A stretch of DNA of 64,000 nucleotides from Burkholderia sp. Bp8992 (GTDB taxonomy: Bacteria; Pseudomonadota; Gammaproteobacteria; Burkholderiales; Burkholderiaceae), in assembly GCF_003853705.1 (NCBI RefSeq), contig NZ_QTQI01000011.1, forward strand, positions 160,338 to 224,337. Reading direction: 5' to 3'. Below the pieces are notes generated by a model. It saw only the letters and a list, made by a program, of their open reading frames with translations, was not told where the DNA came from and searched no databases. Positions 13,419 through 50,610 of this stretch are shown one piece after another. Numbering within the stretch: position 1 is the first letter of the stretch; every line of letters starts with the position of its first letter. A program made the translations under genes and the position numbers.

Positions 13419-13462
13419 TTCCACGACCGTTGTACCCCTAGACCTCACGACTGGAGACCTGC

Positions 13463-14134
13463 ATGCGTACCAACACCCCCGCCGAAGTCAACGCCGACAC
13501 CTACGATCACTATGTCGACACGTTCACGCTCGAATGGAACCGCAATCTGGTGCAGCGCGTCGAGCACGAGCTCGCGCAGCGGCGCATCGCGTCGGGCAGC
13601 TTGCTCGATGTCGGCACCGGTACCGCGCGTACGCTGATAGAGCTGGCCCGCGTCCCGTCGCTCGCGCCGCTGGGCTTCGTCGGCGTCGACTACTACGACG
13701 ACATGGTGCAGCGCGCCGAACAGAACGTGCGCGCGGAAGGGCTGGAAGGACGGATCGCGATCCGCGCCGGCGATGTCCACGCGCTGCCGTTCGACGACGG
13801 CACGTTCGTCGCGGTGATCGGTCGTTCGGTCGTGCATCACTGGGCCGACCCGGTCGGCGCGTACCGTGAGATCTTCCGCACGCTGGCGCCCGGCGGTTTC
13901 GCGCTGATTCACGAACCCTGCAGCGATCCGGCGCCGGAGGCGCTCGCGTTCTTCAACGAGCGGCGCGCGGCCGCGGGCGTTCATCCGGTTCATCTCGACG
14001 GCAAGTTCACGGTCGCGGAATCGGTCGGGCACCTGCATGAAGCCGGTATCGGCGAGCACGCCAGCGTATCGAAGGGGGCGGGGATGCTCGCGATCGGCTT
14101 CGAGGTGCTGATCGCGAAACCGGCAAAGCAGTAA
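13463..14134 (+). CDS. class I SAM-dependent methyltransferase
   Basis: The protein is 223 aa. Motif I is LLDVGTGTARTL, the acidic residue after strand 2 is in FVGVDYYDDM, and motif II/III follow in HALPFDDGTF and LAPGG. This is the UbiE/Methyltransf_11 type that methylates small molecules. GGAG lies eight bases before the ATG. It lies 44 nt after the MATE gene in the same orientation and probably decorates the cluster product. The substrate cannot be told. Confidence 0.82.
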   Translation: MRTNTPAEVNADTYDHYVDTFTLEWNRNLVQRVEHELAQRRIASGSLLDVGTGTARTLIELARVPSLAPLGFVGVDYYDDMVQRAEQNVRAEGLEGRIAIRAGDVHALPFDDGTFVAVIGRSVVHHWADPVGAYREIFRTLAPGGFALIHEPCSDPAPEALAFFNERRAAAGVHPVHLDGKFTVAESVGHLHEAGIGEHASVSKGAGMLAIGFEVLIAKPAKQ

Positions 14135-14148
14135 GCGGAGCATTGCCG

Positions 14149-35802: not shown

Positions 35803-36733
35803 GTAATTCCCCAGATTATGAGTGGGTTTGTTCGAGGAATGAATCAAGTGAAGACTTCGATGTAAGACATGTCGCGAACAGCAGAGGCATGCTAGAGGGT
35901 GGCTTTTATAATTACAAGATGTTTCTATTGATATTAAATTTTCATATCGGCCTCGTTAATCGAGTCGTGATTTGGTGAGAAATTTGAAATGATTCTGTCG
36001 GCCGCCTTGGAGGTAGGGGGGCATTGCGTCGAAAGCACGGGGGTGAGCGTTGCGCCGCTCCGGGCAAGGCAGGGTGTGATGCAGGGCGGGTGGGCCGATG
36101 GATGAGTGGAAGCAGAATCGAGGAGATGGATGAAGCTTTTTTATTAAATATTTGTGGTGATGGTTGCTATTTTTGGCACTCTCGAGCGGCATTGATAATG
36201 CCGTCGATATTTTCTCTTTTTGATGTCAATGCCAACAGATCCGCAGTGAATGCCTGACGGAAGACAGTTGTGTTGCGTGTTACGAAATTTAGAATGTGAA
36301 TCGATGCAATATCTTCCGGTCGCGCGGATCATCGCCTGACGGTCGGTAGTACCAGTCATGCGATCCACTGTCGACTCGATTCGCTCAGTGGCGCGCTACG
36401 GCATCAGATGCTGCTGGATCCCGGCTTCCATGAACTTGCGTCTAGTATCATATTTGACATAATGCTGATGATCACTTTTTTGACTTGTAGTGGCTAGATT
36501 GAAATGTCCGCTTTTGGCTACATAGAAATGCCCGCTTTTCGACCCAACGTAAGCTGATCGGCCGCTGGCAATCCAGCTCCGGAGGCTTCAATGGCTGCAA
36601 CGGAACGGATTCGGGCCGACGCTGGCCTGCGAGAAGCCCTGGGAGTGCCACGGGATTCGGCTAGCCAAAGAGACGGCCATGTCGGGTCACCCATACGGGC
36701 GACCCGGCGGATCGACGAATTCCGCGCTCCCGG
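35803..36733. other. 931-bp AT-richer gap carrying insertion-sequence debris
   Basis: No intact gene is present. The first 200 bases (upstream of zmpA) are markedly AT-rich compared with the surroundings and should hold the zmpA promoter. A second AT-rich patch covers 36130-36480. A pair of near-identical 15-mers at 36501-36539 looks like the end of an insertion sequence. The stretch marks the downstream border of the minus-strand peptide-modification operon. Confidence 0.5.
36501..36539. repeat. tandem 15-mers resembling an insertion-sequence end
   Basis: GAAATGTCCGCTTTT (36501-36515) and GAAATGCCCGCTTTT (36525-36539) differ by one base and start 24 bp apart. Repeated GAAATGTCC-type motifs of this kind occur at the ends of some IS21-like elements, where they bind the transposase. 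No transposase gene remains beside them. Confidence 0.45.
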
Positions 36734-38401
36734 TCACTCGGGAACGACACCATCCTCGAACGGCTCCTCGTCGCCGGAACCTGCCTCGTCGGCGTTATCG
36801 CTCGTCTCTTCGGCGACGTCGGACGCCTCTTGCTGCACCTCGACGGCTTCCTCGACCTGGTCCTTCAATTGCTGGCTCACCTGGTCGCCCAGATTCTCGA
36901 CGATGTCGGGAAGCGATTGCGTGACCTCGCCCAGGCTTTGGTTCGCTTCGCTCAGTTGACCGGCTTCGAGCTTCGAGCTCGCGTCGACCAGGTTGCCCTC
37001 GGCCTCCTCGATCTGCTCGTTGACCTCGATCTGCGCGAGATCCTTGAGCTGTGTGCTCGCGCTGTCAATCCCGCCGCCGATGTTGTCCCCGGCCACCTCG
37101 CTGTATGCTTCGGAGCCCGACGCACGCGCCGCACTCACGTCGTTCGCGAATGCGGCATCGTCCGCCGGCACCTGCACGTTGCCTTCGCCTGCGGCCCGGT
37201 CGGCTAGTTGCTGGTCCTGCTGCCGCGCGTCGTTGCCGATCGCGTCGCCGGCATCCTGCGCATCCTGCTGCTGTTGCTGGTTGGGCGCATCGCCGCGATT
37301 CTCGTTGGCCTGGTCGTCCTGGAGCTTGTTGTCCTTGCCGGTCAGCTTTTGCTTCAGGAAATCGAGCGCCATCCACACGCCCATCGCCTGCAGGAAGTAG
37401 CCGAGCACCTTCTCGAACGTGAGGTTCGACCAGAACTTGTGCCAGCCCGACTCCGGCGCGAGCGGGATCGCGATTACCTTCTTGTTGAGCAGCGTGCCGG
37501 TCAGGATCGGCCACGCGGTGGTGTCGCTCTCCTTGCCCGTGAAGGTCCCCTTGAAGCCGAATGCCGCATTGAGCGCAACCGCACCGGCGGTATCGACGAT
37601 CTGCCCATTGTCGAACGACAGCGTGCTCGTCGAGCTACTTGACCCGGTGAGCGTGATCGTCATGCCGCTCAGGCGGTCGGCCGGATCAGCCGGCGACGGT
37701 GCCCCCGACTTCCTGGCGAACACGATCGTGCCTTCGGACGTCGCGCCGGTCTTGCCGTCTCCCGGCGCCGAATAGACATAGTAGGTCCGGCCCGGCTGGC
37801 CCTTGTCGTCCATGCCCCATAGATACGCATAGCCGCGCATCCAGGTGCTGACCGCGACGTAGCTCGGGAAGTCGAGCCCCTTGAACAGGTCGTACTGGTT
37901 GAAGAAGGCGGCAATTGCCTTCTCGCTGTCGGACACGGACGGCAGCTTGAATGCGTCGGTCATCGCGCTCTGGAAGCCGGTCGCCATTTTCGACGTCGGC
38001 GACGTCATGATGTTCTTGCAGAAGCTGAGCGCCTTGGCCATGTTCGCGGCGGCAGCTTCGGTCACGGAGATCGGCGGGTAGCCCTGCGTGCTGAAATCGA
38101 GTGCTTCGCCGACCGACATGACCGGGAACAGTGAATCCGGCTGCGAAATCAGCAATTGGTAAATGAAGCATGGCTTGGTCTGCCCCTTCGAATCGGTGTA
38201 GGTGCCGTCGAGCGTGACCGTGCCGGCCGCGCCGTTGGCCAGCACCTTGCCGCCCGACGATAGCGCCAGCAACGTCAGCTCCTGCAGATAGCCCTGCTTC
38301 GACGAGTTCTGCGCGACGTTGGTCGACGAGTTGAACGCGTTGAGCACGACGACGCTCTTGCCCGACTTGTTGGTGATCGAGCAGTTCTTGTTGATAGCCA
38401 T
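36734..38401 (-). CDS. large protein of unknown function with acidic Gln/Asp/Glu-rich C-terminal half
   Basis: The protein is 555 aa. It has no signal peptide. The N-terminal part (about 1-330) is a beta-rich globular region starting MAINKNCSITNKSGKS. It is followed by one amphipathic/hydrophobic segment (VLGYFLQAMGVWMALDFL), then about 180 residues of low-complexity, strongly acidic and Gln-rich sequence with helical spacing. This layout (globular, hydrophobic segment, acidic low-complexity) resembles the Val-Asp repeat protein at 42883-44682, and the two may be distant paralogues. It is the last gene of the sigma-54 operon, 80 nt after the 391-aa gene. No function can be assigned. Confidence 0.65.
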   Translation of the reverse strand: MAINKNCSITNKSGKSVVVLNAFNSSTNVAQNSSKQGYLQELTLLALSSGGKVLANGAAGTVTLDGTYTDSKGQTKPCFIYQLLISQPDSLFPVMSVGEALDFSTQGYPPISVTEAAAANMAKALSFCKNIMTSPTSKMATGFQSAMTDAFKLPSVSDSEKAIAAFFNQYDLFKGLDFPSYVAVSTWMRGYAYLWGMDDKGQPGRTYYVYSAPGDGKTGATSEGTIVFARKSGAPSPADPADRLSGMTITLTGSSSSTSTLSFDNGQIVDTAGAVALNAAFGFKGTFTGKESDTTAWPILTGTLLNKKVIAIPLAPESGWHKFWSNLTFEKVLGYFLQAMGVWMALDFLKQKLTGKDNKLQDDQANENRGDAPNQQQQQDAQDAGDAIGNDARQQDQQLADRAAGEGNVQVPADDAAFANDVSAARASGSEAYSEVAGDNIGGGIDSASTQLKDLAQIEVNEQIEEAEGNLVDASSKLEAGQLSEANQSLGEVTQSLPDIVENLGDQVSQQLKDQVEEAVEVQQEASDVAEETSDNADEAGSGDEEPFEDGVVPE

Positions 38402-38481
38402 CGTTTTTCTCCGTAGGTGAGTAGGAACAACACAGGTTGACGGTGATGACGTCGCTCGCGGCATGCACGCCGCGTCTGCAT

Positions 38482-39657
38482 CTAGTACTCGACGCGGGTC
38501 GTGCTCGACCGAACGCCGCCTTCGAACCGGGTGGAGATGATCGTGCCGCCGATCGGTTGCCCGTCGGTCGCGAACTGCGCCGCGCGATAGTCGACGTCGG
38601 TCACGCGCACGACGGTCCGGCCGTCGGTAGCGAAACCCGTGACGAGCGAGCGCCATGGCGCCGCGCCCCCACTCGATAACCATTCGTCGCGCACCTGCGC
38701 GAGGCTGCCATCGGCGCGGAATGCCCGCCGCGTCCGATCCGGCGCACGCGTGGGCTGCCAGGGCTCCGGCACAGGTTTCGCCGGCGCGGCTTCGCGCGGC
38801 GGCGGCACGGGGTCCCCCGGTTTCAGCACGCGTGTCGAGGTCAGCTTGCCGTTCGTGAAGCGAAACAGCGTCAGCACCTGCGTGTTGCTGCCCCCCGGCT
38901 GCAGCGTGACGAGCAGATGCCCGTCGAGAATCTTGCCGCGCGCATCGAACGCGACCCCGCTGTAGTTGGATTCGACACGTTGGCGCACCGTTGAGCCGTC
39001 TTCCGCGTAGTTGGTGGCGAGCAGACGGCCTGGCGTTCCGTGTGCGGTCAGGATCGAGCGCGCGGTGCTCGCGAGCGTCAGCGCAGGGCCGGCATGGCGG
39101 AAAATCGCCAGTTCGCCGCCCCTGAGCCGCGTGCCGACCAGCACGGCGTTCGCGAAATCGATCTCGAGGCGGCTCGCGATCGCGCCCTTCCCGTCGGATG
39201 CATCGTTGACGAGCGAGTAACGCGCAGGCCGTTCGTTCGCGTAGGTCATCTCGGCGACATGGCTTGGCGACCCGTCGGGCCCGGCGAGCGAGAATTGCGC
39301 GACGCCTTCGGTCGGCCAGCCGGCGGGGTCGAGCGCCAGCGCGCGATAGATGCCTTGCACCGTGCGCCGCAGCGTACCGTCGGCGGTGAGCAGTCGCGTC
39401 GCCGACGACACCGCTCGGCCTTGCGCATCGACGACGATGTCGGACGTCGAATGGGGCGCGCCGCCCGCGAGCGATGCCGCATAGCGGATCGTGCCGCCCG
39501 CATCCGACACGTCGGCGTAGCTGGCGTGGCCCATGGTCGCGACGCTCGCGCCGTCGGGCCCGTAATGCACCGCGCCGACCGATCGCGGCCGGTTGCGCGC
39601 CAGGCCTGTCACGTCCACCGCGACGGCCAGCGCCTGCTGCCCGAGTTCCTGAATCAT
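38482..39657 (-). CDS. hypothetical beta-rich protein
   Basis: The protein is 391 aa with no signal peptide or membrane segment. It has repeated short strand-turn units such as AVHYGPDGASVATM, YAEDGSTVRQRV and FRADGSLAQV, reminiscent of YD/RHS-type repeats but too irregular to assign. It overlaps the 2-oxoglutarate oxygenase gene by 4 nt, so it is translationally coupled to it and very likely part of the modification operon. A proline-rich linker lies around residue 285. Confidence 0.6.
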   Translation of the reverse strand: MIQELGQQALAVAVDVTGLARNRPRSVGAVHYGPDGASVATMGHASYADVSDAGGTIRYAASLAGGAPHSTSDIVVDAQGRAVSSATRLLTADGTLRRTVQGIYRALALDPAGWPTEGVAQFSLAGPDGSPSHVAEMTYANERPARYSLVNDASDGKGAIASRLEIDFANAVLVGTRLRGGELAIFRHAGPALTLASTARSILTAHGTPGRLLATNYAEDGSTVRQRVESNYSGVAFDARGKILDGHLLVTLQPGGSNTQVLTLFRFTNGKLTSTRVLKPGDPVPPPREAAPAKPVPEPWQPTRAPDRTRRAFRADGSLAQVRDEWLSSGGAAPWRSLVTGFATDGRTVVRVTDVDYRAAQFATDGQPIGGTIISTRFEGGVRSSTTRVEY

Positions 39658-40439
39658 GGTGCCTCCTGCGTGATCAGGGATTGCCCGACGGGCCCGGCGT
39701 TGCCGCCGCTGCCGCACGGCCGCTCGAGCACGTTGACGATCCGGTCCATCAGCGCGACGCCTTCGGCGCGCGTCGTCGCCCGCTTGTAGGAAAACCGCAT
39801 GTCCAGGCTCACACGCGTCACGCCGGAATGATTGGCGACCGTGCCGTGGCCCAGATACCCGCCGTCGAAGATCAGCACTTGCCCGTATCGCACCGGGACC
39901 GATTCAAACTCGCCGCTGCCGTAGTCGCGCTCGAGCCACAACGTCGCGCCGTCGAACACGTCGGTGAACGGCATCCAGAAGTTGATCTGGTCGATCCGGC
40001 GCGTCACGCAGATGTCGTGATGAAACGAGCTGATGCTGGCTGTGCCGGACAGGTGGATGCGCAGCTTCGGATGGCTCGTGTACGAGATCCCGCGCCCTAC
40101 CAGGGGCGCGAGCTTCGCGAGCATGAAGCCGTGGTAGAGCTTCCAGAAATCGGCATCGGCTGACTGACGCTCCATCATCGCGCTCACCATCAAATTGTCG
40201 CGCGGGCCGATCCGAGCACTGCGCCCGTTACGCCGCCGATGGTCGAGCAGGTACTCATGCAGCCGGTCGAGGCGCTGCACCTTGTACACGTCGCGGCTCA
40301 GCACGGCCGCGAATGGAAAGCGCGCCGTGTCGTAGTCGAACAGCACCCATGTGCGCCGCGGGCGCTGTCCGGCTTCGCGTACGAGTTCCGCGCGATCGAC
40401 GTCGGCAATCGACGCATCCGTGCCCATGACGGTGCTCAT
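39654..40439 (-). CDS. 2-oxoglutarate/Fe(II)-dependent oxygenase
   Basis: The protein is 261 aa. The facial triad is visible as His140-x-Asp142 in SSFHHDICV and the distal His198 in GGYLGHGTV, with Arg209 or Arg215 likely to bind 2-oxoglutarate. The middle segment INFWMPFTDVFDGATLW resembles StrG/phytanoyl-CoA-type oxygenases. It probably hydroxylates or otherwise oxidises the operon's substrate. It overlaps genes on both sides by 4 nt: the borosin-like methyltransferase upstream and the 391-aa gene downstream. Confidence 0.77.
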   Translation of the reverse strand: MSTVMGTDASIADVDRAELVREAGQRPRRTWVLFDYDTARFPFAAVLSRDVYKVQRLDRLHEYLLDHRRRNGRSARIGPRDNLMVSAMMERQSADADFWKLYHGFMLAKLAPLVGRGISYTSHPKLRIHLSGTASISSFHHDICVTRRIDQINFWMPFTDVFDGATLWLERDYGSGEFESVPVRYGQVLIFDGGYLGHGTVANHSGVTRVSLDMRFSYKRATTRAEGVALMDRIVNVLERPCGSGGNAGPVGQSLITQEAP

Positions 40440-42856
40440 GGGTGGTCCGCTCCATCCCGGTGCAGTCGCGCAAGCAGCTGGCGGACACGCGCGAGATTGG
40501 TCGATGCGCGCTCATAGCCGTGCCACAGGAACAGCCCGCCCTTGCGGCTCGCTGCGGCCATGATCGCGACAAGATGCGCCCACGCCCAGTCGGGCAGCCC
40601 GAGCCGCGGTGTCGCAGCGAGCACGGCGGCGTCGGCGTCGCTCATGACCGTCATCCCGCGCAGCGCGCTGCTCGCGCCGCTAGCGCCTTGCGCGGTGCCG
40701 TGCACGAGCGGACGCAATGTGACCGGGTCGAGCGTGAATGTCAGCGATCCGCTCGCCATCGCGGACGGCCCGTCACGCCATTGCATCGCTTCGCCGTCGA
40801 ACGTCGCGGCCACGCGCCGCCCGCCGATCGAGAAGCCGCCGGCATCGACGCATGCAGAGGTCACTTCAGCCAGCGCCCCGTGCCGTAGCAGCAGTCGGTA
40901 TTCGCCATGCAGGTACGCGGCGGGCAGGTCGTCGCAGATGCGGGCCGCGAACGGCACGCGGCGCACGCCGAGCGTGAAATGGTCGCGGCCGATCGACAGC
41001 GGTTCGTCGACAGGCGTGCCGTTGAGCGTCACGCTCATCCCGGCGGCCGTCGGCAGGATCGCGATCAGGTGCTCGCCGGCGTCGGGCGCGAGCCATCGAT
41101 AGACTCCGGCGATCGCGCTGGCCGGGAGCCGCGGGCGCGCCAGGCACTCGTCCACGACGAGCTTGTGCGATGTATCGGGGTGGGCACCCGCCGGCCAGAT
41201 CAGTCCGACCCAGCGCCGCTGGCCGCCGGGGCGCAGATCGGGCTGCAAGTAGCCGGAGCAAGGATTTCCGGCATCGGCGGACCACGTGAGCACGCCCTTG
41301 TCGAAACGCGCGGCCTGCACACGCACCCCATTCAGGTCGACGCGCGTGACACCGCCGTCCGGCCGGCCGAACACCGACAGCGACAATGCGTGCCCAGCGG
41401 CCAGATAGAAACCGCTCCATACCGCCAAGTCGCGACGCAGCAGTTGCTGGAAATCGGCGGTGAGCGCAGGCCAGTCGGCCGCGATGCCCCGTGCGTCGCT
41501 CCACGAGGCGGCCGCCGCCTGGACGTGGCCGGCCGGCGCGCGCTTGACCGCCGCGAGCAGCGTCGCGCTCGCCGACTTGCGGTCGAGCAGCAGGCTCAGC
41601 AGCCGGCGGTTTTCGGGCTCGCCGCCGGCACGCAGTCCCTTTGCGGCGAGCTGGATCGCTCCGGCATCGCGCCGGCTCAGCAGCTCGCGCTCGCGTGGCG
41701 ACAGGCCCGGCCAGCCGGCGACGGCCGTGGCGGCATCGTCGCGATAGCGCTCGCGCAGGTGCGGATCGTCGCACAGCGCGAGCACGAACCGCGCGGCCGC
41801 GCTGTCGGGCTGCCACTGATAGCTCTGCGGCACATCGAAGGTCGCGAAATCGGTGAACGCCCGGCGTTCGCGCGGACCATAGCGATCGATCACGCGCAAC
41901 GCTTCGGCGCTCGTGCGCAGCGGCTGGCCCGGGTGCAGCAGCCCGAGTCGGTCGAGCATCGCCGCATCCGCGAGGGCCGCGTCCTTGGGCGGCAGGTAGA
42001 AGGTCGAGATGCCGGTCACCCAGTTCTGTACCGACGGATCCCTCAGCGAGGCGATCGTCTGACGGTCGATCAGCGGCTCGACGCCGGGATAGCGCGAGCC
42101 GACATAGTTCACGACCGGATGGTCGGCGCCGTACATCGCCTCGAGATAGTCGAGCAACACCGAGAAGTTGCTGTTCAGATACCCTTGACGGCGATAGCCG
42201 AGCTCGCCGATCAGCCCGACCTGCCACAGCACGAGGTGCAATCCCGTATCCGGCCGGCGGCTGCGGATCAGCATGTCCGTCGCCTCATACATCTGCATGC
42301 CGGGCTGGCTGGGATCGACGCCGAGATCCGCGCAAAGCGTGTCGAGCGCGCTGACCGCCGCACGCATCTCCGCGCGATGCCCTTCACGCCTTGCAATTCG
42401 GACGGCACGGTGCGTCGCCAGCACGAAGATGCCCGGATGACCGTAAAAGATCGCGACGACCCGCTGCCCCTGTCGCACCGGATGCAGCATCGCCTCGGCC
42501 ATCTGCATGTACGTGACGTAGCGTCGCTTGCTGTCGTCGTACAGCGTGTAGAGGTCATAGGCGTCGGGCCGCTCGCGCAGCAGCCAGACCTTCGTCGCCG
42601 GGTCCGCGACGCAGAAGAACACATGATCTGCCGCACGAATGCGCGCCTCGTCTGCACGCGTGAAACCGCTCGCCTCGATCCCGGAGCCGAGGATCTCGAG
42701 CGAACCGGGCCGGTCCGGCGGCGCAATCGCAGCCGGATCGTCGGTAATGGACGCCGCACGCGCCGCAATCTCGCGCGCGAGATGCCGCCAGCGGCGGCGA
42801 TGCGTTTCCGCATCGGGATAGCGCTCGGGGTCCGGCTGCGGCCAGGCAGTGCTCAT
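40436..42856 (-). CDS. borosin-type alpha-N-methyltransferase with fused C-terminal domains
   Basis: The protein is 806 aa. Residues about 50-310 are a tetrapyrrole-methylase fold closely matching the peptide backbone N-methyltransferases of borosins (OphMA, SonM): LEILGSGIEASG, FYGHPGIFVLATHRA, ADLGVDPSQPG and HLVLWQVGLIGELG. Tyr103, Tyr106, Arg112 and Tyr116 have exactly the spacing of OphMA Tyr63, Tyr66, Arg72 and Tyr76, the catalytic set as I recall it. Residues about 350-407 (FVLALCDDPHLRERYRDD then PGLSPRERELLS) resemble the borosin-binding/LigA-like domain. The remaining about 400 residues are beta-rich and unassigned; no Val/Ile-rich core lies at the C-terminus. It overlaps the oxygenase gene by 4 nt. 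Confidence 0.82.
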   Translation of the reverse strand: MSTAWPQPDPERYPDAETHRRRWRHLAREIAARAASITDDPAAIAPPDRPGSLEILGSGIEASGFTRADEARIRAADHVFFCVADPATKVWLLRERPDAYDLYTLYDDSKRRYVTYMQMAEAMLHPVRQGQRVVAIFYGHPGIFVLATHRAVRIARREGHRAEMRAAVSALDTLCADLGVDPSQPGMQMYEATDMLIRSRRPDTGLHLVLWQVGLIGELGYRRQGYLNSNFSVLLDYLEAMYGADHPVVNYVGSRYPGVEPLIDRQTIASLRDPSVQNWVTGISTFYLPPKDAALADAAMLDRLGLLHPGQPLRTSAEALRVIDRYGPRERRAFTDFATFDVPQSYQWQPDSAAARFVLALCDDPHLRERYRDDAATAVAGWPGLSPRERELLSRRDAGAIQLAAKGLRAGGEPENRRLLSLLLDRKSASATLLAAVKRAPAGHVQAAAASWSDARGIAADWPALTADFQQLLRRDLAVWSGFYLAAGHALSLSVFGRPDGGVTRVDLNGVRVQAARFDKGVLTWSADAGNPCSGYLQPDLRPGGQRRWVGLIWPAGAHPDTSHKLVVDECLARPRLPASAIAGVYRWLAPDAGEHLIAILPTAAGMSVTLNGTPVDEPLSIGRDHFTLGVRRVPFAARICDDLPAAYLHGEYRLLLRHGALAEVTSACVDAGGFSIGGRRVAATFDGEAMQWRDGPSAMASGSLTFTLDPVTLRPLVHGTAQGASGASSALRGMTVMSDADAAVLAATPRLGLPDWAWAHLVAIMAAASRKGGLFLWHGYERASTNLARVRQLLARLHRDGADHP

Positions 42857-42882
42857 GATCGATCCTCGTAACGGACGGGCAA

Positions 42883-44682
42883 TTAGCCCTTCAGGTAGAC
42901 CATCGCAACAGACGCCCCCGTCTTCACGGGCAGCGGCCGGTTCTGGTACGTCGCTTTCGCGAGCGTCTGGAACGCCAGGTACGCGTTGGTGCCGGTGTTC
43001 TGCTTCATCTGTGCCACCAGTGCGTTCTGGGCGTCCTGCGGCCATCGCCAGTTCTGCGCTTCGGTATCCGCCAGGCTGTTCTTCGTCTGCAGGATGGTCG
43101 ACAGCGTCACCTGTAGCGTGGTTGAATCGCCCTGCACTTCCTGCACGTATTGGCTGAAGGTGGTCCAGCGTGTGTCGACCGGGATCGGATCGTTCAGCAT
43201 GTAGTTGACGAGCAGGCCCAGCCCGGACGTCTGGCGCGGCTGGAGATTCTGCATGTCGCGCTCGTCTGCCTGCCGCCATGCGTCGAGCAGCTTGCCGGCT
43301 GTCTGGAACGCGACGTAGATCGCGACGCCCTCGACGAGCGTCGGCAGCGCCTTGGTCATGATCCAGTTGCCGACCGCGCCGAGCACGCGCGATAGCGTCC
43401 CTGGCTGCACATCGACGTCGGTGTCGATATCCACGTCCACGTCCACGTCGATGTCGCTGTCGGTCACAACATCGATGTCGACGTCGATATCGACATCGAC
43501 ATCCACGTCGACCACGGCAATGAAATCGACGTCCACGTCGATGTCGACATCCACGTCCACATCCACGTCGATATCGATGTCCACATCCACGTCGATATCG
43601 ACATCGATGTCGATGTCGACGTCCACGTTGATGGGATCGGCATCGTCCCCCACTGCGCTGTCCGGGGCCGCGCTGTCGCCGTTCGCGTTGAGCGCGCCGC
43701 GAATCTTGCCGGCGATCTCGCCGACGTTGGTCGCGAGCCATTGCAGCCCGCCGGGAATCGCGCCCAGCAGGTTGATCGCCGCATCCACGGCCATCGCGAG
43801 CTGGACGGTGAAGAACGCACCGTAGACGAGATCGTAGAGCACCGCGTACCAGGGCAGCGTCGGGTCCTGGTACGACTGCGCGATGAACTGCTGGCCGTTG
43901 TACGTGCCGACGAAAGCCCACGTGATCGTGTCCGGGTGCCCTTCCCACGCGAGGTCGCGTATGACAGCCGTGAGCAGCATGCCGTTTTTAGCGGTTGCCC
44001 CTGCACTGGATAGCCGTGAGGTCGCGAAATCGAGTGGAATCGGCGTGCCTCCGGTCGGCGTGTACACCGCCTTGCCGTCAGTGATCGTCAGTGTGCCGAC
44101 GCAGGTTGTTGGCACGATGAAGCCCATCGAACTCGCTGCCGGCGGTTCGTAGCAATAGTAGGTGCCGGGAAATGCATAGAGCTGATTCGTCGCCCAGTAG
44201 CCCAGCGCGGAATAGAGGCCAAACGTAAGCCCCGCTGCGCCGTTCTGCGAGAAATAGGTCGCCGCCGCATCCGGCAGGCTGGTCACCGGCGTGTTCTCAA
44301 CCAGCGCGTTGAAGTTCAGTGCCGTCGGCGTGAACGGCTGGCTCACGATATTCCGGTAGAAGTTCCAGCCCGCCGTTGCGACATCCGCGTCGGACTGCGC
44401 GAGCGGAATCGTCTGCGACCCGGGCGTGAGTGCTTCCACGACGGCCACCTTGAGCGGAAATTCGTCCGTCTGACGCGTAATCACGACGCGCGCGATCGGC
44501 TCGTCGGTCGTGAAATGACCGGTGCCGTCCGCCGGGACGCTGCCGAGCAGCGTATAGGTCGGCACGTAGGCCGAGGGATCGGTCGACGGCGGATTGGTCG
44601 GGGTCGGCGACATCGTCGTGTAAACATTCACCGCCGCACCGTAAGTGCTGGTGACGTTGATCGGGTAAGTGGCCATGTTCAT
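42883..44682 (-). CDS. protein with long alternating Val/Ile-Asp repeat
   Basis: The protein is 599 aa from ATG 44682 (MNMATYPINV); ATG 44676 and GTG 44739 are alternatives. Residues about 1-310 are beta-rich. A hydrophobic stretch (YGAFFTVQLAMAVDAA, then a Gly/Leu-rich segment) comes next, followed by about 75 residues (350-425) in which Asp alternates with Val or Ile almost perfectly. A second hydrophobic stretch (around LPTLVEGVAIYVAF) and a 130-residue C-terminus end the protein. The borosin-like methyltransferase gene follows after 26 nt. A beta-branched repeat next to a backbone N-methyltransferase could be its substrate, or a metal-binding or secreted structural segment. ATGA coupling to a 22-codon leader supports start 44682. 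Confidence 0.72.
   Translation of the reverse strand: MNMATYPINVTSTYGAAVNVYTTMSPTPTNPPSTDPSAYVPTYTLLGSVPADGTGHFTTDEPIARVVITRQTDEFPLKVAVVEALTPGSQTIPLAQSDADVATAGWNFYRNIVSQPFTPTALNFNALVENTPVTSLPDAAATYFSQNGAAGLTFGLYSALGYWATNQLYAFPGTYYCYEPPAASSMGFIVPTTCVGTLTITDGKAVYTPTGGTPIPLDFATSRLSSAGATAKNGMLLTAVIRDLAWEGHPDTITWAFVGTYNGQQFIAQSYQDPTLPWYAVLYDLVYGAFFTVQLAMAVDAAINLLGAIPGGLQWLATNVGEIAGKIRGALNANGDSAAPDSAVGDDADPINVDVDIDIDVDIDVDVDIDIDVDVDVDVDIDVDVDFIAVVDVDVDVDIDVDIDVVTDSDIDVDVDVDIDTDVDVQPGTLSRVLGAVGNWIMTKALPTLVEGVAIYVAFQTAGKLLDAWRQADERDMQNLQPRQTSGLGLLVNYMLNDPIPVDTRWTTFSQYVQEVQGDSTTLQVTLSTILQTKNSLADTEAQNWRWPQDAQNALVAQMKQNTGTNAYLAFQTLAKATYQNRPLPVKTGASVAMVYLKG
43407..43632 (-). repeat. hexanucleotide-like repeat coding (Val/Ile-Asp)n
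   Basis: About 225 bp reading as alternating GTN/ATC and GAY codons. Synonymous codons are mixed (GTC with GTG, GAC with GAT), and the run is broken by short insertions (FIAV, VVTDS). The repeat is therefore old and kept at the protein level, not a recent microsatellite expansion. Confidence 0.9.
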
Positions 44683-44747
44683 TGCACCCATGCGCAACAG
44701 GGCGAATACGGCGATAGATCGGATGGCTGACAAATGCACGTATCCAT
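44679..44747 (-). CDS. 22-residue leader ORF coupled to the Val-Asp repeat protein
   Basis: ATG at 44747 is preceded by AGGAG with seven-base spacing, the best ribosome-binding site in this gap. It encodes a 22-residue peptide with four Cys (MDTCICQ... ending PCCAWVQ). Its TGA overlaps the ATG at 44682 (ATGA), and that ATG has no ribosome-binding site of its own. The simplest reading is a translationally coupled leader. A frameshifted true start or a small functional Cys peptide are alternatives. Confidence 0.45.
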   Translation of the reverse strand: MDTCICQPSDLSPYSPCCAWVQ

Positions 44748-44773
44748 GGCTTATCTCCTGTGGAAATTGATTC

Positions 44774-44790
44774 GCGTCCTGTCAGGACGC
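44774..44790. promoter_or_regulatory. perfect 17-bp inverted repeat upstream of the leader ORF
   Basis: GCGTCCTG-T-CAGGACGC is a perfect inverted repeat 27 bases before the leader ATG on the minus strand. In RNA it would fold as a 6-bp stem with a 5-nt loop. It could be an operator for an internal promoter or a processing/translation-control hairpin between the rSAM gene and the repeat-protein gene. Confidence 0.4.
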
Positions 44791-44912
44791 CCGCATCCTG
44801 CAGATTCCGCTTCGTCGGCAGCACCCCGATGCACGACATCGCCGGGCGAACAGGCGCGGCATCGCGGCCCGCATGGTCGTTGTCCCGAGCAAGGACGTGT
44901 GGCCGGTACCGA

Positions 44913-46361
44913 TCAACTCAACAGCCGCTCGACTTCCTCGATGAGCGCATGACGACGCTGCGCGTCCTGTTCATAAGCCCGCTCGGCCGCCGCAATGTCC
45001 GCGCCGCAGTGCGGGCATCGGGCGTCGTGCTGATGCACGTAGCTGTTGCACGCACGGCACACGGCCAGCCTCGGCGGGATTCTTCCGACCGCCGGCGCAC
45101 GCTTGCCCTTGTGTTTCCACGCCAGCTCGACGGTCTGCCCCGAACGGGAAATGCTCGACACCGGCGTGCCGTCCGCAATGCGTTCGGTAACCAGGTCGAA
45201 GCGGCCAACCGCGAAGGACGCAGGCGCCGCCTCCTCGATCTTCTCGATGCGTTCGCGGAGCCCCTGCTTCTTCAGTTCGAGCACCCGGTAATGGCAATAC
45301 GGGTTATTGCCCGGCTTGCCGAGCAGCGAATGCGAGGTCCATGTACAGCCGCCGCGACACACGTCGGCGTAGTAGCACGTGCGGCAAAATCCCCACAGGT
45401 CGTCCACCGAGCGGAGCCGGCCGAAATGGATCGCGTCGCTCGTGCGCCAGATCTCTTCCAGCGACAGGTCACGAACGTTGCCGCCCGCGAACCCGACCGT
45501 CGCAAGCGACGGACAGCCCTTGACGGTGCCGTCCGCTTCCAGCGCAAGAACGGTCTGCCCAGCCGCGCATCCGGTCCAGTGCACCCGCTCGTCGCCAAAA
45601 CCGCGCCACAGATACTCGTACGGCCCGAAGTAGCCGATGTTGTTGCCGACATTCATGAGTAATCCGCGATCGAGCCCGCGCTTGTAGAGGTCCGCCAGCA
45701 ACGGCATCAATTCCTCGAGCTGGTACGGCTGCAGCAGCAGTTCGTCGTGATCGACCGCGTTGCCCATCGCGACCGTCAGCTGAATCTGCCAGTGCGTGGC
45801 CCCGAGCTCGATGATCGTATCCATCAGCGCGGGGAGGTCGCGCATCGTTTCCGAACCGATCTGCGTGTTCACGCTGACGGCAAGACCGTGCGCGCGGGCG
45901 CGCTTCAGCGTATCCACGGCCCGCTCGAACGAGCCCGGCACGTTGCGCACCTTGTCGTGCAGCGGCGCCAGGCCGTCCAGCGACACGCCCAGCCCGTTCA
46001 GGCCCGCGTCGACGGCCTGCGCGAGCCGGGCGGGCGTCAGGTTGCGGCCGCCCGTCTGCACCGCGCAGTACATCCCGTGTGAGCGGATGGCCTTGATGAG
46101 TTGCGCCCAGTCCTTGCGCAGGTAAGCCTCGCCTCCGATCATCGACACTTCGCGCGTGCCGAGCCTGGCCAGCGCGTCGATCACTTCGAGGCACTCGTCG
46201 GTCGACAGCTCGCTGGTGCGCCGGTGGCCCGCGCGCGATCCGCAGTGCAGGCACTTCAGGTCGCAGGCCAGCGTGATTTCCCACACGACGTGAACCGGGA
46301 TGGATCGTTCGTAGTCCTCTTCGCTGAGGAAGCGAACCGGGCGCAATTGATTGTCTTCCAT
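44913..46361 (-). CDS. radical SAM/SPASM peptide-modifying enzyme (Y-X10-GDL-associated)
   Basis: The protein is 482 aa. The [4Fe-4S] motif is Cys33-x3-Cys37-x2-Cys40 in LACDLKCLHC, and GGEAYLR follows as the usual GGE motif. The C-terminal region has SPASM-type cysteines (GCAAGQTV, CRTCYYADVCRGGC, PYCHY) for auxiliary clusters. It ends with a zinc-ribbon-like CRACNSYVHQHDARCPHCG that is rare in such enzymes. From memory, TIGR03913 describes a radical SAM protein always found beside three DUF1843 proteins, exactly the neighbours here. It probably modifies the conserved Tyr or nearby residues of those proteins; the chemistry is unknown. Confidence 0.88.
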   Translation of the reverse strand: MEDNQLRPVRFLSEEDYERSIPVHVVWEITLACDLKCLHCGSRAGHRRTSELSTDECLEVIDALARLGTREVSMIGGEAYLRKDWAQLIKAIRSHGMYCAVQTGGRNLTPARLAQAVDAGLNGLGVSLDGLAPLHDKVRNVPGSFERAVDTLKRARAHGLAVSVNTQIGSETMRDLPALMDTIIELGATHWQIQLTVAMGNAVDHDELLLQPYQLEELMPLLADLYKRGLDRGLLMNVGNNIGYFGPYEYLWRGFGDERVHWTGCAAGQTVLALEADGTVKGCPSLATVGFAGGNVRDLSLEEIWRTSDAIHFGRLRSVDDLWGFCRTCYYADVCRGGCTWTSHSLLGKPGNNPYCHYRVLELKKQGLRERIEKIEEAAPASFAVGRFDLVTERIADGTPVSSISRSGQTVELAWKHKGKRAPAVGRIPPRLAVCRACNSYVHQHDARCPHCGADIAAAERAYEQDAQRRHALIEEVERLLS

Positions 46362-46464
46362 ATCGATGTCCCTCGAGTATCGCCTGCCCCGCCACGGAAA
46401 TTCGCTGGCCGCCGGGAAGGTGCCCGCCCGCGCACCGCGGCGGACACCTCCACTTTGCAAACGC

Positions 46465-47049
46465 TCAGCGTACGCCTTCCAACCGGGCAATCTCGGCGTT
46501 CAGGCCGGCGAGGGCTTCCTCGATGCGGCCCGCATCGGCGAGCTGCTGCTCGGCCTGGCGGGCCAGCGCCTTCATCCGGCCGAGATCGCCCGATTGCCGC
46601 GCCTGCTGCAGCCCGACGCCGTACAACGGCGTAACCGGATGCCGGGGCTCGAACGGTTGCAGCGCGCCGGTCACAGTCATGAGCGCGTGGTCCACTTCAT
46701 GCCAGCGCGCGCCGTCGAAGAACCGGTAGCTGGCGACGCCCGACTGCCAGTCCGCCTCGACGATGCCCTGCAGCCGGAACGTTTCGGCCAGGCCGCTGGT
46801 CGGCCCGGATGGATTGCCCTCCACGCTGAGGGCGAGTTGCGTCTTGCCACCGGGGGTCAGCACGAGCGGGCTGAATTGTCCCCATACTTGCGCACGGAAT
46901 TCGAGCGGCGGCCAGGTCGTCTGGGTGACGCGCGCCACGCCGCTGACCTTCTTGGCGGCCGAGTTGATCAATAGCGCGAGCGTGAGGACTGGTGCGCCTA
47001 TCGCCGGCGTTGCGACACGGAAAGTCACGGGAAAAAGAGCGGCGGACAT
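46465..47049 (-). CDS. DUF1842-DUF1843 protein, putative rSAM substrate
   Basis: The protein is 194 aa. Residues 1 to about 135 form a beta-rich DUF1842-like domain (with VEADWQSGVASYRFF). The C-terminal about 58 residues are DUF1843, with the motif Y-X10-GDL (PLYGVGLQQARQSGDL) and a helical tail ending NAEIARLEGVR. AGGAG precedes the ATG. It is 103 nt upstream of the rSAM gene and is one of the trio of mutually homologous proteins expected to be modified by it. Confidence 0.83.
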   Translation of the reverse strand: MSAALFPVTFRVATPAIGAPVLTLALLINSAAKKVSGVARVTQTTWPPLEFRAQVWGQFSPLVLTPGGKTQLALSVEGNPSGPTSGLAETFRLQGIVEADWQSGVASYRFFDGARWHEVDHALMTVTGALQPFEPRHPVTPLYGVGLQQARQSGDLGRMKALARQAEQQLADAGRIEEALAGLNAEIARLEGVR

Positions 47050-47095
47050 TGAATGGCTCCTGTAGCAATTAAGGATCGGGGCAACCGGACCGGCT

Positions 47096-47713
47096 TCAGT
47101 TCCCGGCTTCCAGACGCGCGATTTCGGTCTTCAGCGCCACGAGCGCCGCCGCGATTTCGTCACGGCTTTGCAACTGGTGCTTTGCCGCTGCCGCGACCGT
47201 CTTCATGTGCGCGAGATCGCCGGAGGCCGCCGCTTGCTGAATCGGGGCGCCGTACAACGGCCGCGGGCCGCCGTGCGGTTCGACGATCACCGGCCCCGGC
47301 TCGAGCGGCACGAATTCCCGATCGATCCTGGCAGGCACGTTCTCGACTTCGCGCCAGCTGCCGTTGGCGAAGAAGCTGTACGTCGCGATGCCGCTTTGCC
47401 AGTCGCTTTCCAGCACGAGATGCAGCCGGAACGTGACGATGGAATTCGAGTTCGGGCCGCCGTCGTTGCCGTGCAGCGTCACCAGGATGCGCGTGTTGAC
47501 CGGCGGCATCAGCGCCAGATAGGTGAAGTTGCCCCAGACGTCGGCATGGAAGTCGACCGGCGGATTCGTGGCCTGTCCGATCGTTGCCGTGCCCACCACA
47601 CTGCCTTCGGGCGTATCCACGAGCAATGCGAGCCTGAGCGACGGCGCACCGGGCATGCCGGTGCCGATGAGGTAGCCCGCCGGGAACAGCCCGGTACGTG
47701 TGTTCTCTGACAT
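47096..47713 (-). CDS. DUF1842-DUF1843 protein, putative rSAM substrate
   Basis: The protein is 205 aa and paralogous to the next gene downstream. The DUF1842-like N-domain shares ESDWQSGIATYSFF with the neighbour's EADWQSGVASYRFF. The DUF1843 tail carries PLYGAPIQQAAASGDL (Y-X10-GDL) and ends LKTEIARLEAGN. GAGGAG lies seven bases before the ATG. Second gene of the sigma-54 operon. Confidence 0.83.
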   Translation of the reverse strand: MSENTRTGLFPAGYLIGTGMPGAPSLRLALLVDTPEGSVVGTATIGQATNPPVDFHADVWGNFTYLALMPPVNTRILVTLHGNDGGPNSNSIVTFRLHLVLESDWQSGIATYSFFANGSWREVENVPARIDREFVPLEPGPVIVEPHGGPRPLYGAPIQQAAASGDLAHMKTVAAAAKHQLQSRDEIAAALVALKTEIARLEAGN

Positions 47714-47761
47714 GTGGTTCTCCTCGGTGGTGAACGAAACGGCAAAGCGTGCGACGGCCGC

Positions 47762-47950
47762 TCAGGCCTGCTCGCGCCTCGCAATCTCCAGCTTGAGCTT
47801 GCCGACTGCGGCGGCAAGATCCCCCTGCTGCTTCAGAACCTCCTCGGCCTGGCTGAGCAAGGCCTTCATCTTCGCTACATCTCCGTCCGATATGGCCTGA
47901 TGGATCGCTACGCCATAAGGCGGAATGACATGCCCGGTTTCCCTGTTCAC
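47762..47950 (-). CDS. stand-alone DUF1843 small protein, putative rSAM substrate
   Basis: The protein is 62 aa and consists only of the DUF1843 domain: PPYGVAIHQAISDGDV (Y-X10-GDV, with Val replacing the Leu of the other two copies), then a coiled helical tail ending LEIARREQA. The start is GTG at 47950, chosen because AAGGAG lies six bases upstream and the sigma-54 promoter at 48011-48025 would put the RNA start near 48000. The frame is open further upstream to 48127 with many Cys, but that part overlaps the promoter. First gene of the operon. Confidence 0.8.
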   Translation of the reverse strand: MNRETGHVIPPYGVAIHQAISDGDVAKMKALLSQAEEVLKQQGDLAAAVGKLKLEIARREQA

Positions 47951-48010
47951 AACGTTCTCCTTGAAAGGATGGTCGCACCGATTCGCGAAGTCTCCGCAGG
48001 CACAATCAAA

Positions 48011-48025
48011 GCAACACGTGTGCCA
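48011..48025 (-). promoter_or_regulatory. consensus sigma-54 (-24/-12) promoter
   Basis: Read on the minus strand the sequence is TGGCAC-ACGTG-TTGC, a full match to the sigma-54 consensus TGGCAC-N5-TTGC with the invariant GG and GC correctly spaced. It lies about 60 bp upstream of the GTG start of the first DUF1843 gene and about 300 bp past the end of an enhancer-binding-protein gene on the same strand. It should drive the whole modification operon. Confidence 0.85.
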
Positions 48026-48079
48026 ATTACCGCACGTCAGGCATCCGTCCGCGAGATCCACTGCGGCTCGCCGATCGAA

Positions 48080-48093
48080 GGACGAATTCGTCC
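48080..48093. promoter_or_regulatory. enhancer-binding-protein site, proximal copy
   Basis: The perfect 14-bp palindrome GGACGAATTCGTCC has its centre about 65 bp upstream of the -24 element. Position and symmetry fit an upstream activator sequence for the enhancer-binding protein encoded at 48331-50610. Confidence 0.7.
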
Positions 48094-48111
48094 GGTAGCT
48101 TCGAGCGCGAT

Positions 48112-48125
48112 GGACGAATTCGTCC
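48112..48125. promoter_or_regulatory. enhancer-binding-protein site, distal copy
   Basis: A second copy of GGACGAATTCGTCC, extended here to an 18-bp perfect palindrome (48110-48127). The two centres are 32 bp apart, about three helical turns, so two dimers would bind the same DNA face. Confidence 0.7.
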
Positions 48126-48330
48126 ATGCGCGGCTACATGGGTCGGTTTCCGGGGATGCAACGGCACGCAAGTCCGGGGCTCGACTGGGCTCGACGGGAC
48201 TCGACGGAAGGCGGTATGGAGGGACCGCCGCGAGCGCGGCAGCTGGAGAAGGTTGATCGGCGTACGACTCCGAAGTCGGAGGAACCGAACCGCCGTGCTG
48301 GACCTTCGGGAAATCGCGTTGATGCGATCG

Positions 48331-50610
48331 CTACAGCATCCCACGCGCGTGGTTCGGGCCCGCGAGCGCAACCGCAGGCACGTGCAGCGGTCGCTCGTGC
48401 GCTTCGACGTCAGGCGTTGTCCGTGCGGGCTGTCGCAACAGTTCCGCCAGATACGTCGTCGCGGCAAGGCGCGCGGGCACCGAGCCGAGCGCCAGAGCCG
48501 TCGAGATCGCGATGCGCAGCCCCTGCTCCGCCGCGCCGGTGTCGCCGAGCATCCATTGTGCACGTGCCTTGACGATCAGCAACTCGCCGAGATAAGCACG
48601 CTCCTGCCTGCGGATCACCTCGTCAATCGCCTCTGAAACGAGCGCTTCGCATTGCCGAGCACGCCCAGTGCTCAACAGGAGCTCGCCATGCTTCCAGGCC
48701 TTGATCGAATGGAACAGCGCGCCGCCATGCTTCGCGATGTCGTTGTCGTAGCCATCCAGCAGCATCGCCTCGGCTTCGCCATCCTTGCCGACCATGCTCA
48801 GATAGCAGGCCCTGAATATTCGGGCCGCCCCGCTGCAACAAGCCGGACGGCCCGCTAACGATACGGCGTCGAGCGCGGTCGTCAGATCCCCGAGCCGATC
48901 TGTGTCGCAGAACAGCATCGCGAGCCACGCAGCACCTTGCAGATCAACCGCGCGACTCGGCGAATGCGGATGTTCTTCGTCCGATCGCGCGATCAACCCG
49001 TCCATCGCACGGCGCGCGTCGTCGACCGACCCGGTCTGGTATGCGGCGAGCCCCTCGAGCGTCAATGCCAGTCCTGCGACATCGACGCCCTGGACCCCGA
49101 GCCTGCGGTCAGCGCGGCCGATGCCGCGCAACCCGCCGCGGGACAGCGACGCGAGCGCTTCCTCGCTGTCGCCGAGCCAGAAAAGCGTATTGGCCAGCGC
49201 GACGTGGGCCTCGTCGAGCGCGGCCCGTTCCCCCATCGCGTGCGCGCGCTGAATGAGTTCCTGGGCCGTGGCGCGCGCCTTGCTGAGCTGCAATGTCACC
49301 AATTGCGTCGTCCAGACGCCGAACTGAACCGCCGCGAGTTCAAACGCATCGCATACGCCGTCGCCGATCGACAACGCGGCCTTGTAACACTCCATTGCCT
49401 CGGAACACTGCCAGCCATTGACGCCGCGCAGGCTGACGGCAAGCAGGCGATACGCGCCGAACAACAGCCGGCAGCCATCTTCGGTCTGGCTGGCCTTGTG
49501 CAGCAGATCGACGCAACGACGCAGCAGCGCAACGGCTTCGCGAAGCTGGCCTGAGCCGATCAGCGCCTCCGCACACTCCAGGCACTGCCTCGCTTCCCCA
49601 TGTTGCACTTCGCGTGCTTTGAGCCGGCGCTCGATGACCTTGCGGCTTACACCGAGCATCGCGGCCGCGGCGCTCTTGTTGTTCGACGTCCTCTCCAGCG
49701 CGCGATCGATCAGCAACTGTTCGGCCGCGGCCAGCTTGTCGTCGCCGCCGAGCTCCAGCAGGCGATCCGCGAGATGGGCGCGCGCGTCGTCGTCGTGCGC
49801 GTCCGTCGCGAGAAACGGCGCCAAGGTCTCGGCATCGATCCGGGGATGCTGCGCAAACACGCTGAGCTGACTCACGAGGTTGCGCAACTGGCGAACATTG
49901 CCTGGCCATGGTTGTTCACACAGGCGCTTGATTGCCGCCGGCGTGAACGCGAGCGCCCGCGCTTGCCGGGCCGCAAAATGGGCTGCAAGGAGCGGGATGT
50001 CTTCGCTTCGCTGGGCGAGCCCCGGCACGTTGAGGATGAATACCGCGAGCCGATAGAAAAGGTCTTCGCGGAACCGTCCGGCGCGCGCGTCTTCCAGCAG
50101 GTTTCGATGCGTCGCCGCGACGACGCGCCCGTCAAACCGCAGGCTTGCCGATGCCCCGATCGGCCGGAATGTGCGCGTTTCGAGCACACGGAGCAGTTTG
50201 GGCTGCAGCGCAAGCGGAAGCTCGCCGATCTCGTCGAGAAAGAGCGTTCCCGAACCTACCTGCTCGAACAGGCCGCGGTGGTGTTCGACGGCGCCCGTGA
50301 AGGCGCCTCGCACGTGCCCGAAGAACTCCGCTTCGATCAGGTCGTGGGGGATGGCGCCGCAGTTTACGTCGATGAATGGCATGTCGCGACGCGGCCCGTT
50401 TGCGTGAAGACGCCGCGCGACGAGTTCCTTGCCGGAACCCGTTGGCCCGACGATGAGAAGTGTGTGCCCGGTCGGCGCGACGCGGTCGATCATGGCGACC
50501 AATTGGCGGAGCGCAGGCGATACGCCGATCAGCGCATGCGCTTCAGATGCGTCCTGGTCGCGCGCGCCCACGTCCGGGCCGGAGGCGGCCCCGTTCCGTA
50601 TCGAACTCAT
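48331..50610 (-). CDS. sigma-54-dependent enhancer-binding protein with C-terminal TPR-like region
   Basis: The protein is 759 aa from ATG 50610; the frame is open to 50685 and no strong ribosome-binding site decides between them. There is no N-terminal sensor domain: the AAA+ domain starts within 30 residues. Walker A is GPTGSGKE, the sigma-54 contact loop is GAFTGA (residues 102-107), Walker B is TLFLDEIGE, and PWPGNVRQLRNL is the usual conserved motif. A Fis-type helix-turn-helix (NNKSAAAAMLGVSRKVIERRL) follows. About 400 residues of TPR/helical-repeat sequence come after the HTH, an unusual place for the sensory part. It most likely activates the promoter at 48011-48025. Confidence 0.88.
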   Translation of the reverse strand: MSSIRNGAASGPDVGARDQDASEAHALIGVSPALRQLVAMIDRVAPTGHTLLIVGPTGSGKELVARRLHANGPRRDMPFIDVNCGAIPHDLIEAEFFGHVRGAFTGAVEHHRGLFEQVGSGTLFLDEIGELPLALQPKLLRVLETRTFRPIGASASLRFDGRVVAATHRNLLEDARAGRFREDLFYRLAVFILNVPGLAQRSEDIPLLAAHFAARQARALAFTPAAIKRLCEQPWPGNVRQLRNLVSQLSVFAQHPRIDAETLAPFLATDAHDDDARAHLADRLLELGGDDKLAAAEQLLIDRALERTSNNKSAAAAMLGVSRKVIERRLKAREVQHGEARQCLECAEALIGSGQLREAVALLRRCVDLLHKASQTEDGCRLLFGAYRLLAVSLRGVNGWQCSEAMECYKAALSIGDGVCDAFELAAVQFGVWTTQLVTLQLSKARATAQELIQRAHAMGERAALDEAHVALANTLFWLGDSEEALASLSRGGLRGIGRADRRLGVQGVDVAGLALTLEGLAAYQTGSVDDARRAMDGLIARSDEEHPHSPSRAVDLQGAAWLAMLFCDTDRLGDLTTALDAVSLAGRPACCSGAARIFRACYLSMVGKDGEAEAMLLDGYDNDIAKHGGALFHSIKAWKHGELLLSTGRARQCEALVSEAIDEVIRRQERAYLGELLIVKARAQWMLGDTGAAEQGLRIAISTALALGSVPARLAATTYLAELLRQPARTTPDVEAHERPLHVPAVALAGPNHARGML

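Follow-up and report, generated by a model that had tools for sequence, protein, structure and literature searches.

Among the described systems for backbone N-methylation, the split borosins come closest to a locus that we analyzed in Burkholderia sp. Bp8992, which lies at positions 36,734 to 50,610 of a 64,000-nucleotide stretch of contig NZ_QTQI01000011.1 (positions 160,338 to 224,337, forward strand; hereafter the window, to which all coordinates refer). In type VII/VIII split borosins, an OphMA-like methyltransferase with a clasp is accompanied by a separate precursor encoded next door, and approximately 160 residues have been described after the core of type VIII-like proteins (PMC11395268). 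In type III borosins the core alternates between acidic and other residues, and the fused enzyme KchMA prefers Ala/Val/Leu and some Asp (PMC11395268). The type IV enzyme SonM acts in trans and methylates at positions i and i-2 (PMC8429565), with the borosin-binding domain (BBD) on the precursor SonA and a short core that receives two methylations. Besides, in the pythonamide pair EreM/EreI, the oxygenase is required for backbone methylation of the valines after the first (PMC11285071). In a literature search (borosin, DUF1843/TIGR03913, 2-oxoglutarate/StrG, locus tags) with the main split-borosin papers outside its coverage, the texts seen held no description of the block reported here as a whole, or of its oxygenase partner. 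A further described system, the GDL/DUF1843 radical SAM (TIGR03913) system, is exemplified by C. subtsugae U6115_13245-13260, and a DUF1842 structure exists for BPSS0212.

We consider it probable that the Burkholderia locus consists of two separate modification modules placed end to end, of which the second would be a split borosin whose product is a poly(X-Asp) strand with alternate N-methylation and perhaps hydroxylation. The first, module A, is the known GDL/DUF1843 radical SAM system, here under a sigma-54 activator. A preliminary description of the locus had reported nine minus-strand genes running from a sigma-54 promoter to 36734, and all nine were found (47950 to 36734), together with the adjoining activator gene, behind a sigma-54-like site. 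Its mention of several 4-nt overlaps was generous: the overlaps are real, and the coordinates place them at two junctions, methyltransferase/oxygenase (40436-40439) and oxygenase/P2 (39654-39657). The widest intergenic gap, of about 230 bp, separates the radical SAM gene from the Val-Asp gene. The features are as follows, all on the minus strand.

48331..50610, minus strand: sigma-54 activator (module A) with a presumed ATG start at 50610; Pfam Sigma54_activat 208 bits, HTH_8 33.8 bits
48010..48025, minus strand: sigma-54-like -24/-12 element TGGCAC-N5-TTGCT, the sole exact match in the window
47762..47950, minus strand: DUF1843 ('GDL motif') protein, 62 aa, GTG start; PF08898 78.8 bits
47096..47713, minus strand: DUF1842+DUF1843 protein, 205 aa; PF08896 125 bits, PF08898 78 bits
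46465..47049, minus strand: DUF1842+DUF1843 protein, 194 aa; PF08896 106 bits, PF08898 70 bits
44913..46361, minus strand: TIGR03913 radical SAM/SPASM maturase with a presumed ATG start at 46361; 986 bits, cut-off 591.75
44680..44912, minus strand: junction of modules A and B, free of promoter-like or terminator-like matches
42883..44676, minus strand: Val-Asp repeat protein of about 600 aa, the proposed borosin precursor (module B), with an uncertain start that may lie as far up as 44739; homologue in 29/34 methyltransferase loci
43408..43629, minus strand: poly(X-Asp) core within it, 74 residues by anchors, with the central hydrophobic break FIAVV
40436..42856, minus strand: borosin-type alpha-N-methyltransferase, 806 aa, with a fused clasp/BBD; TP_methylase 36.5 bits, homology to OphMA/SonM
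39654..40439, minus strand: Fe(II)/2-oxoglutarate (2OG)-type oxygenase with HxD...H...R residues; homologue in 29/34 loci
38482..39657, minus strand: P2, a protein without a known family and an optional member; present in 8/34 loci
36734..38401, minus strand: P1, a paralogue of the N-terminal domain of the Val-Asp protein without Val-Asp repeats; present in 22/34 loci

Judged by homology, the methyltransferase is a true borosin relative, in agreement with its earlier reading as a borosin-like backbone N-methyltransferase. A profile built from 31 relatives matched OphMA with 374 bits over both the methyltransferase and the clasp, through OphMA residue 377, and SonM with 186 bits over the methyltransferase part only, which points to a TP-methylase-fold alpha-N-methyltransferase homologous to both enzymes and, by the match to OphMA, to a borosin-binding domain. 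The catalytic Tyr/Tyr/Arg/Tyr/Tyr set of borosins (Y103, Y106, R112, Y116, and Y138) is invariant in 31/31 methyltransferases with spacings of 3, 6, 4, and 22, identical to those of the KchMA residues Y70/Y73/R79/Y83/Y105, which are listed as pivotal (PMC11395268). Two further KchMA residues, C49 and Q179, have invariant counterparts at the same offset (C82 and Q212). The C-terminal approximately 390 residues belong to no known family, and no X-Asp runs were flagged in the methyltransferases of the scanned loci.

The Val-Asp repeat protein noted in the preliminary description is the likely substrate of this enzyme, as the residues between neighboring core aspartates in 34 proteins are almost always Val (453), Thr (269), or Ile (245), together 967/1010, and a locus of Enhygromyxa salina (L041) keeps a like core in a different protein. 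In the window protein, the longest (non-D)-D run comprises 17 units, compared with at most 5 after shuffling the whole protein and at most 10 after shuffling the core alone (5000 shuffles each), and all 33 Asp of the 74 core residues share one parity. Some of the 34 proteins are nearly the same, and the cores of L002/L007/L029, L015/L039, and L022/L025 are identical. A hydrophobic break interrupts the middle of the cores (e.g., FIAVV, VFAVI, ALVVV). By a common rule the core spans 57-98 residues in 33/34 proteins (78 in the window) and 195 in L017, where it is merged with an acidic stretch. A simple DNA repeat as the origin of the core is disfavored, because the codons are mixed and synonymous differences outnumber amino-acid differences over the 74 codons (7 vs 2 against the Paraburkholderia mimosarum locus L009, 10 vs 5 against the genome G251). 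Neither for the Val-Asp protein nor for P1 was a relative of solved structure found by sequence. Profiles made from the usual N- and C-terminal regions did not match the core-bearing L041 protein (12091-14625) at E<=10, although by eye the short word LLNYM that follows its core is similar to the usual flanks. Its X-Asp core lies near the N-terminus, and the remainder looks propeller-like by eye, with DUF6923 and Kelch matches below cut-off.

In the mechanism that we propose, the 806-aa enzyme, with methyltransferase and BBD/clasp fused, would act on the core carried by the separate approximately 600-aa Val-Asp protein and methylate backbone nitrogens along the (Val/Ile/Thr-Asp)n core. Methylation of every second residue would be the simplest pattern, given the repeat period of two and the methylation of i and i-2 by SonM. 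The Fe/2OG oxygenase might hydroxylate core residues (Val/Ile/Thr or Asp) either after or before methylation, and the product would be a long polyanionic, protease-resistant strand unable to pair into ordinary sheets. When ORFs (open reading frames) of >=150 aa were clustered and the clusters present in >=3 loci were inspected by eye, neither a transporter nor a peptidase nor any other conserved companion of module B stood out, so the core may stay part of the large protein. We further speculate, though we hold it to be rather improbable, that the product is a permanent protein-borne fiber of about 57-98 residues of beta-branched-Asp repeats that would carry N-methyl groups at every second residue and hydroxyl groups introduced by the 2OG partner (beta-hydroxy-Asp being one option), and that it is maintained across the six phyla as a metal-binding or surface polymer and not as an antibiotic.

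Set beside the described systems, module B likely has its home in the 'class 2' split borosins of types VII/VIII (methyltransferase and BBD fused, core separate), as far as second-hand descriptions of these allow the comparison. Residues after the core number 175 in the window and 175-212 in 24/34 proteins, near the figure given for type VIII-like proteins, whereas 321-695 residues follow in 9/34 (L018 is incomplete there). A conserved Fe/2OG partner and a P1 paralogue were not found described for split borosins in the texts seen. AboMA and KchMA resemble module B in their alternating acidic cores, and KchMA also in the main catalytic residues and their spacing, but these enzymes bear the core themselves. 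The trans action of SonM parallels that proposed here, with the difference that the module B BBD sits on the enzyme. The mostly oxygenase-dependent valine N-methylation of EreM/EreI offers another parallel, although EreM is FkbM-like and works on a proteusin precursor, while the module B enzyme is borosin-type.

The separateness of the two modules is evident from their distribution. A pattern-based contig scan of 84,980 species with the methyltransferase alignment as query gave 34 module B loci in 31 genomes (three pairs share an assembly, judging by contig names), several of which are metagenome-assembled and perhaps incomplete, and many loci lie on short contigs. They span six phyla (Pseudomonadota, Myxococcota, Actinomycetota, Acidobacteriota, Bacteroidota, and Cyanobacteriota) and contain a Val-Asp homologue in 29, an oxygenase in 29, P1 in 22, and P2 in 8 cases. 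The sequence around the methyltransferase contained a radical SAM or DUF1842/1843 gene in 0/34 loci, and TIGR03913 exceeded its cut-off in 0/31 genomes (11 plus 20 searched). The cut-off matters here, as the profile, with sub-cut-off matches included, hit 11/12 genomes or records as well as 14/14 controls in the first search, as radical SAM families do; the 20 further genomes gave no match anywhere, and the same model matched in the Burkholderiaceae and Burkholderiales surveys. In the opposite direction, TIGR03913 was found over cut-off in 8/299 Burkholderiaceae and 2/399 Burkholderiales genomes, and module B stands beside one of these ten loci, in G251; among the loci examined, it follows module A there and in the window only. 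One of the ten, L078, ends about 0.9 kb after the radical SAM gene, and its genome (G294) is not among the 10/299 that matched the methyltransferase profile at E<=1e-30. A plasmid search yielded Azospirillum lipoferum and Mycetohabitans records with P1-like proteins, a Val-Asp protein, methyltransferase, and oxygenase (annotated 'StrG' in 2/3 records) and no adjoining radical SAM/DUF1843 genes. Azospirillum also has DUF1843 and radical SAM genes, among other genes. The conserved synteny of TIGR03913, DUF1843, the methyltransferase, and the Val-Asp protein that would mark a single pathway, as the preliminary description had proposed, was thus not seen; at 9/10 TIGR03913 loci the genes after the radical SAM gene are absent, an outcome which that description had itself named as speaking against one pathway.

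A natural deletion tells the same story. The P. mimosarum locus L009 is 93.8% identical to window positions 36680-44969, and 80 bp upstream match 47966-48044 (84%), including a variant sigma-54-like site. This 80-bp match and a 57-bp piece left over from the radical SAM 3' end lie 13 bp apart, and the stretch corresponding to 44970-47965, i.e. the trio of small DUF1842/DUF1843 genes and nearly all of the radical SAM gene, is missing, as known from one assembled contig. The Val-Asp protein, methyltransferase, oxygenase, and P1 each remain in one frame. Transposase-type domains (HTH_32, DDE_3) are encoded by ORFs further upstream. In the P. mimosarum genome, no TIGR03913 match exceeds the cut-off, and there is no close copy of the activator (best match 61%). 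P2 (L009 7686-8889) occupies two frames there, by an apparent frameshift or sequencing error. G251, on the other hand, keeps the whole block and regulator, with DNA identities of 92.4% for module B, 87.4% for the radical SAM gene, 83.6% for the trio, and 87.9% for the activator; the better conservation of module B fits a separate history. The G251 match ends at about 36678, and as the P. mimosarum contig ends at the same point, it says little about where the block ends. In the methyltransferase tree, the window and P. mimosarum stand beside Nannocystis pusilla (support 100/100) and then Streptomyces (support 100/99), away from other Burkholderiales, which suggests transfer between phyla; we regard such transfer as likely and not more, because letter composition differs among the tree rows.

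Several observations weigh against this account. Many cores hold short interruptions, and in comparisons of close strains the core is about as variable as the flanks, and somewhat more so in one of the two: the window differs from L009 at 2/74 core and 21/524 flanking residues, and from G251 at 5/74 and 23/523. The counterparts of KchMA S136 and F188, located by the same offset, vary among the methyltransferases. A Val-Asp homologue is lacking near 5/34 methyltransferases (L020, L023, L011, L040, and L041), of which L020 and L023 have only 239 and 528 bp of sequence ahead of the methyltransferase match, and L041 has its core in another protein; L011 and L040 offer about 2.9 and 5.5 kb of upstream sequence, the L040 methyltransferase being split over two ORFs. 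In L018 the Val-Asp gene is about 8 kb away, and 5/34 loci (L012, L016, L017, L018, and L032) have no oxygenase in the sequence at hand. Finally, radical SAM relatives that score up to 428 bits, short of the TIGR03913 cut-off, occur in Nannocystis and Enhygromyxa, and A. lipoferum 4B has the two modules on separate plasmids, which leaves room for a looser radical SAM link.

The alternatives fare differently. Putative co-regulation alone, in which a shared sigma-54 signal would switch on both modules in one physiological state for different products, is compatible with two separate modules, and we give it about an even chance. The -24/-12 consensus of sigma-54 promoters is TGGCAC-N5-TTGC[AT]; its exact form occurs once in the 64-kb window, at 48025 on the minus strand and next to the activator gene, in keeping with the sigma-54-controlled layout predicted earlier. 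A simple consensus scan found no terminator-like or sigma-70-like site in the gap between the radical SAM and Val-Asp genes. In this Paraburkholderia lineage, modules A and B are laid out like one transcription unit, from which we infer shared transcription. Moreover, a sigma-54-like site fronts module B in P. mimosarum after loss of the trio and radical SAM gene. DUF1842/1843 genes of B. thailandensis are listed as up in an exponential-to-stationary study (PMC12322963), and a C. subtsugae DUF1843/radical SAM cluster has been linked with quorum sensing (PMC12114271). Nevertheless, the arrangement occurs in this lineage only (window, G251, and the L009 remnant), and P. mimosarum lacks a close activator.

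We find it unlikely that the Val-Asp protein is an unmodified structural or metal-binding protein and that the methyltransferase targets P1, itself, or something else. P1 homologues do accompany 22/34 methyltransferases, and the Val-Asp protein is large, with no conserved protease or exporter seen adjoining; however, P1 in the window has no such repeat, L041 keeps the core and not its usual carrier, and an alternation of acidic with other residues has been described for the type III cores cited above. That radical SAM enzyme, trio, methyltransferase, and oxygenase act on one product is very improbable, for despite the common strand, the lack of a terminator-like site between the modules, and the operon and regulator block kept whole in G251, all 31 module B genomes lack TIGR03913 over cut-off, module A lacks module B at 9/10 loci, and P. 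mimosarum retained module B without the trio and nearly all of the radical SAM gene.

Returning to the two modules, module A is a plain member of its family, with the radical SAM enzyme above the curated cut-off and DUF1842/DUF1843 neighbors; the earlier assignment of the radical SAM gene and trio to TIGR03913 with PF08896/PF08898 was correct, with PF08898 matched in all three small proteins and PF08896 in two of them. The activator combines an AAA+ sigma-54 interaction domain, a Fis-type HTH, and a TPR-like C-terminus. It occurs in 5/10 TIGR03913 loci, and the same five carry the sigma-54-like site (exact in L077, L078, L080, and L081, variant in L079). Module A therefore consists of activator, site, trio, and radical SAM gene in that half, and of the trio or part of it (part only in L082 and L086) plus the radical SAM gene in the rest. 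On an Aureibacter tunicatorum plasmid (L006 4640-8968), three DUF1843 genes and a radical SAM relative stand between an upstream gene annotated rimK and a downstream class I methyltransferase gene.

Within module B, the 2-oxoglutarate oxygenase named in the preliminary description is supported by its residue pattern: H140 and D142 are invariant and H198 and R209 nearly so among 22 aligned sequences, while the PhyH match is sub-threshold and TIGR04324 falls below cut-off. Some relatives are annotated 'StrG', and the oxygenase and the Val-Asp protein are equally frequent among the loci. Profile comparison aligned P1 with the N-terminal domain of the Val-Asp protein at 99.3% probability over 279 columns, and its tail gave weak coiled-coil-like matches (best E 0.0004). 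P2 has no Pfam or NCBIfam match, and its derivation from the methyltransferase C-terminal part was rejected (0.2% probability). A thermolysin-family M4 metallopeptidase with propeptide (34105-35847, minus strand) lies about 0.9 kb past P1; it was dismissed as a maturation protease, as it has no relative among the ORFs of 42 loci, and in G251 the conserved block stops short of this gene, with M4-matching DNA on another contig. Two ABC-transporter ATP-binding genes lie upstream of module B in A. lipoferum. Besides, a second, shorter methyltransferase-plus-clasp-like family of 443-467 aa was encountered (Burkholderia arboris plasmid L003 8911-11947, L067, and L068); the L003 locus has an oxygenase homologue nearby and no flagged X-Asp run, and the family may represent a further borosin type that has a 2OG partner. 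A Bradyrhizobium sp. 155 plasmid (L004 4763-9775) carries two borosin-like methyltransferases, a TauD-like dioxygenase, and a prolyl oligopeptidase in a compact borosin-like cluster.

From the survey and the deletion in P. mimosarum it can be seen which genes belong together, and there is no need to treat the nine genes as one pathway. Module B, a compact set of putative precursor, methyltransferase, and oxygenase found in six phyla, has a core that is unusually regular for a borosin enzyme, and it opens two testable questions, namely how far iterative backbone methylation may reach and whether the oxygenase sets its register.

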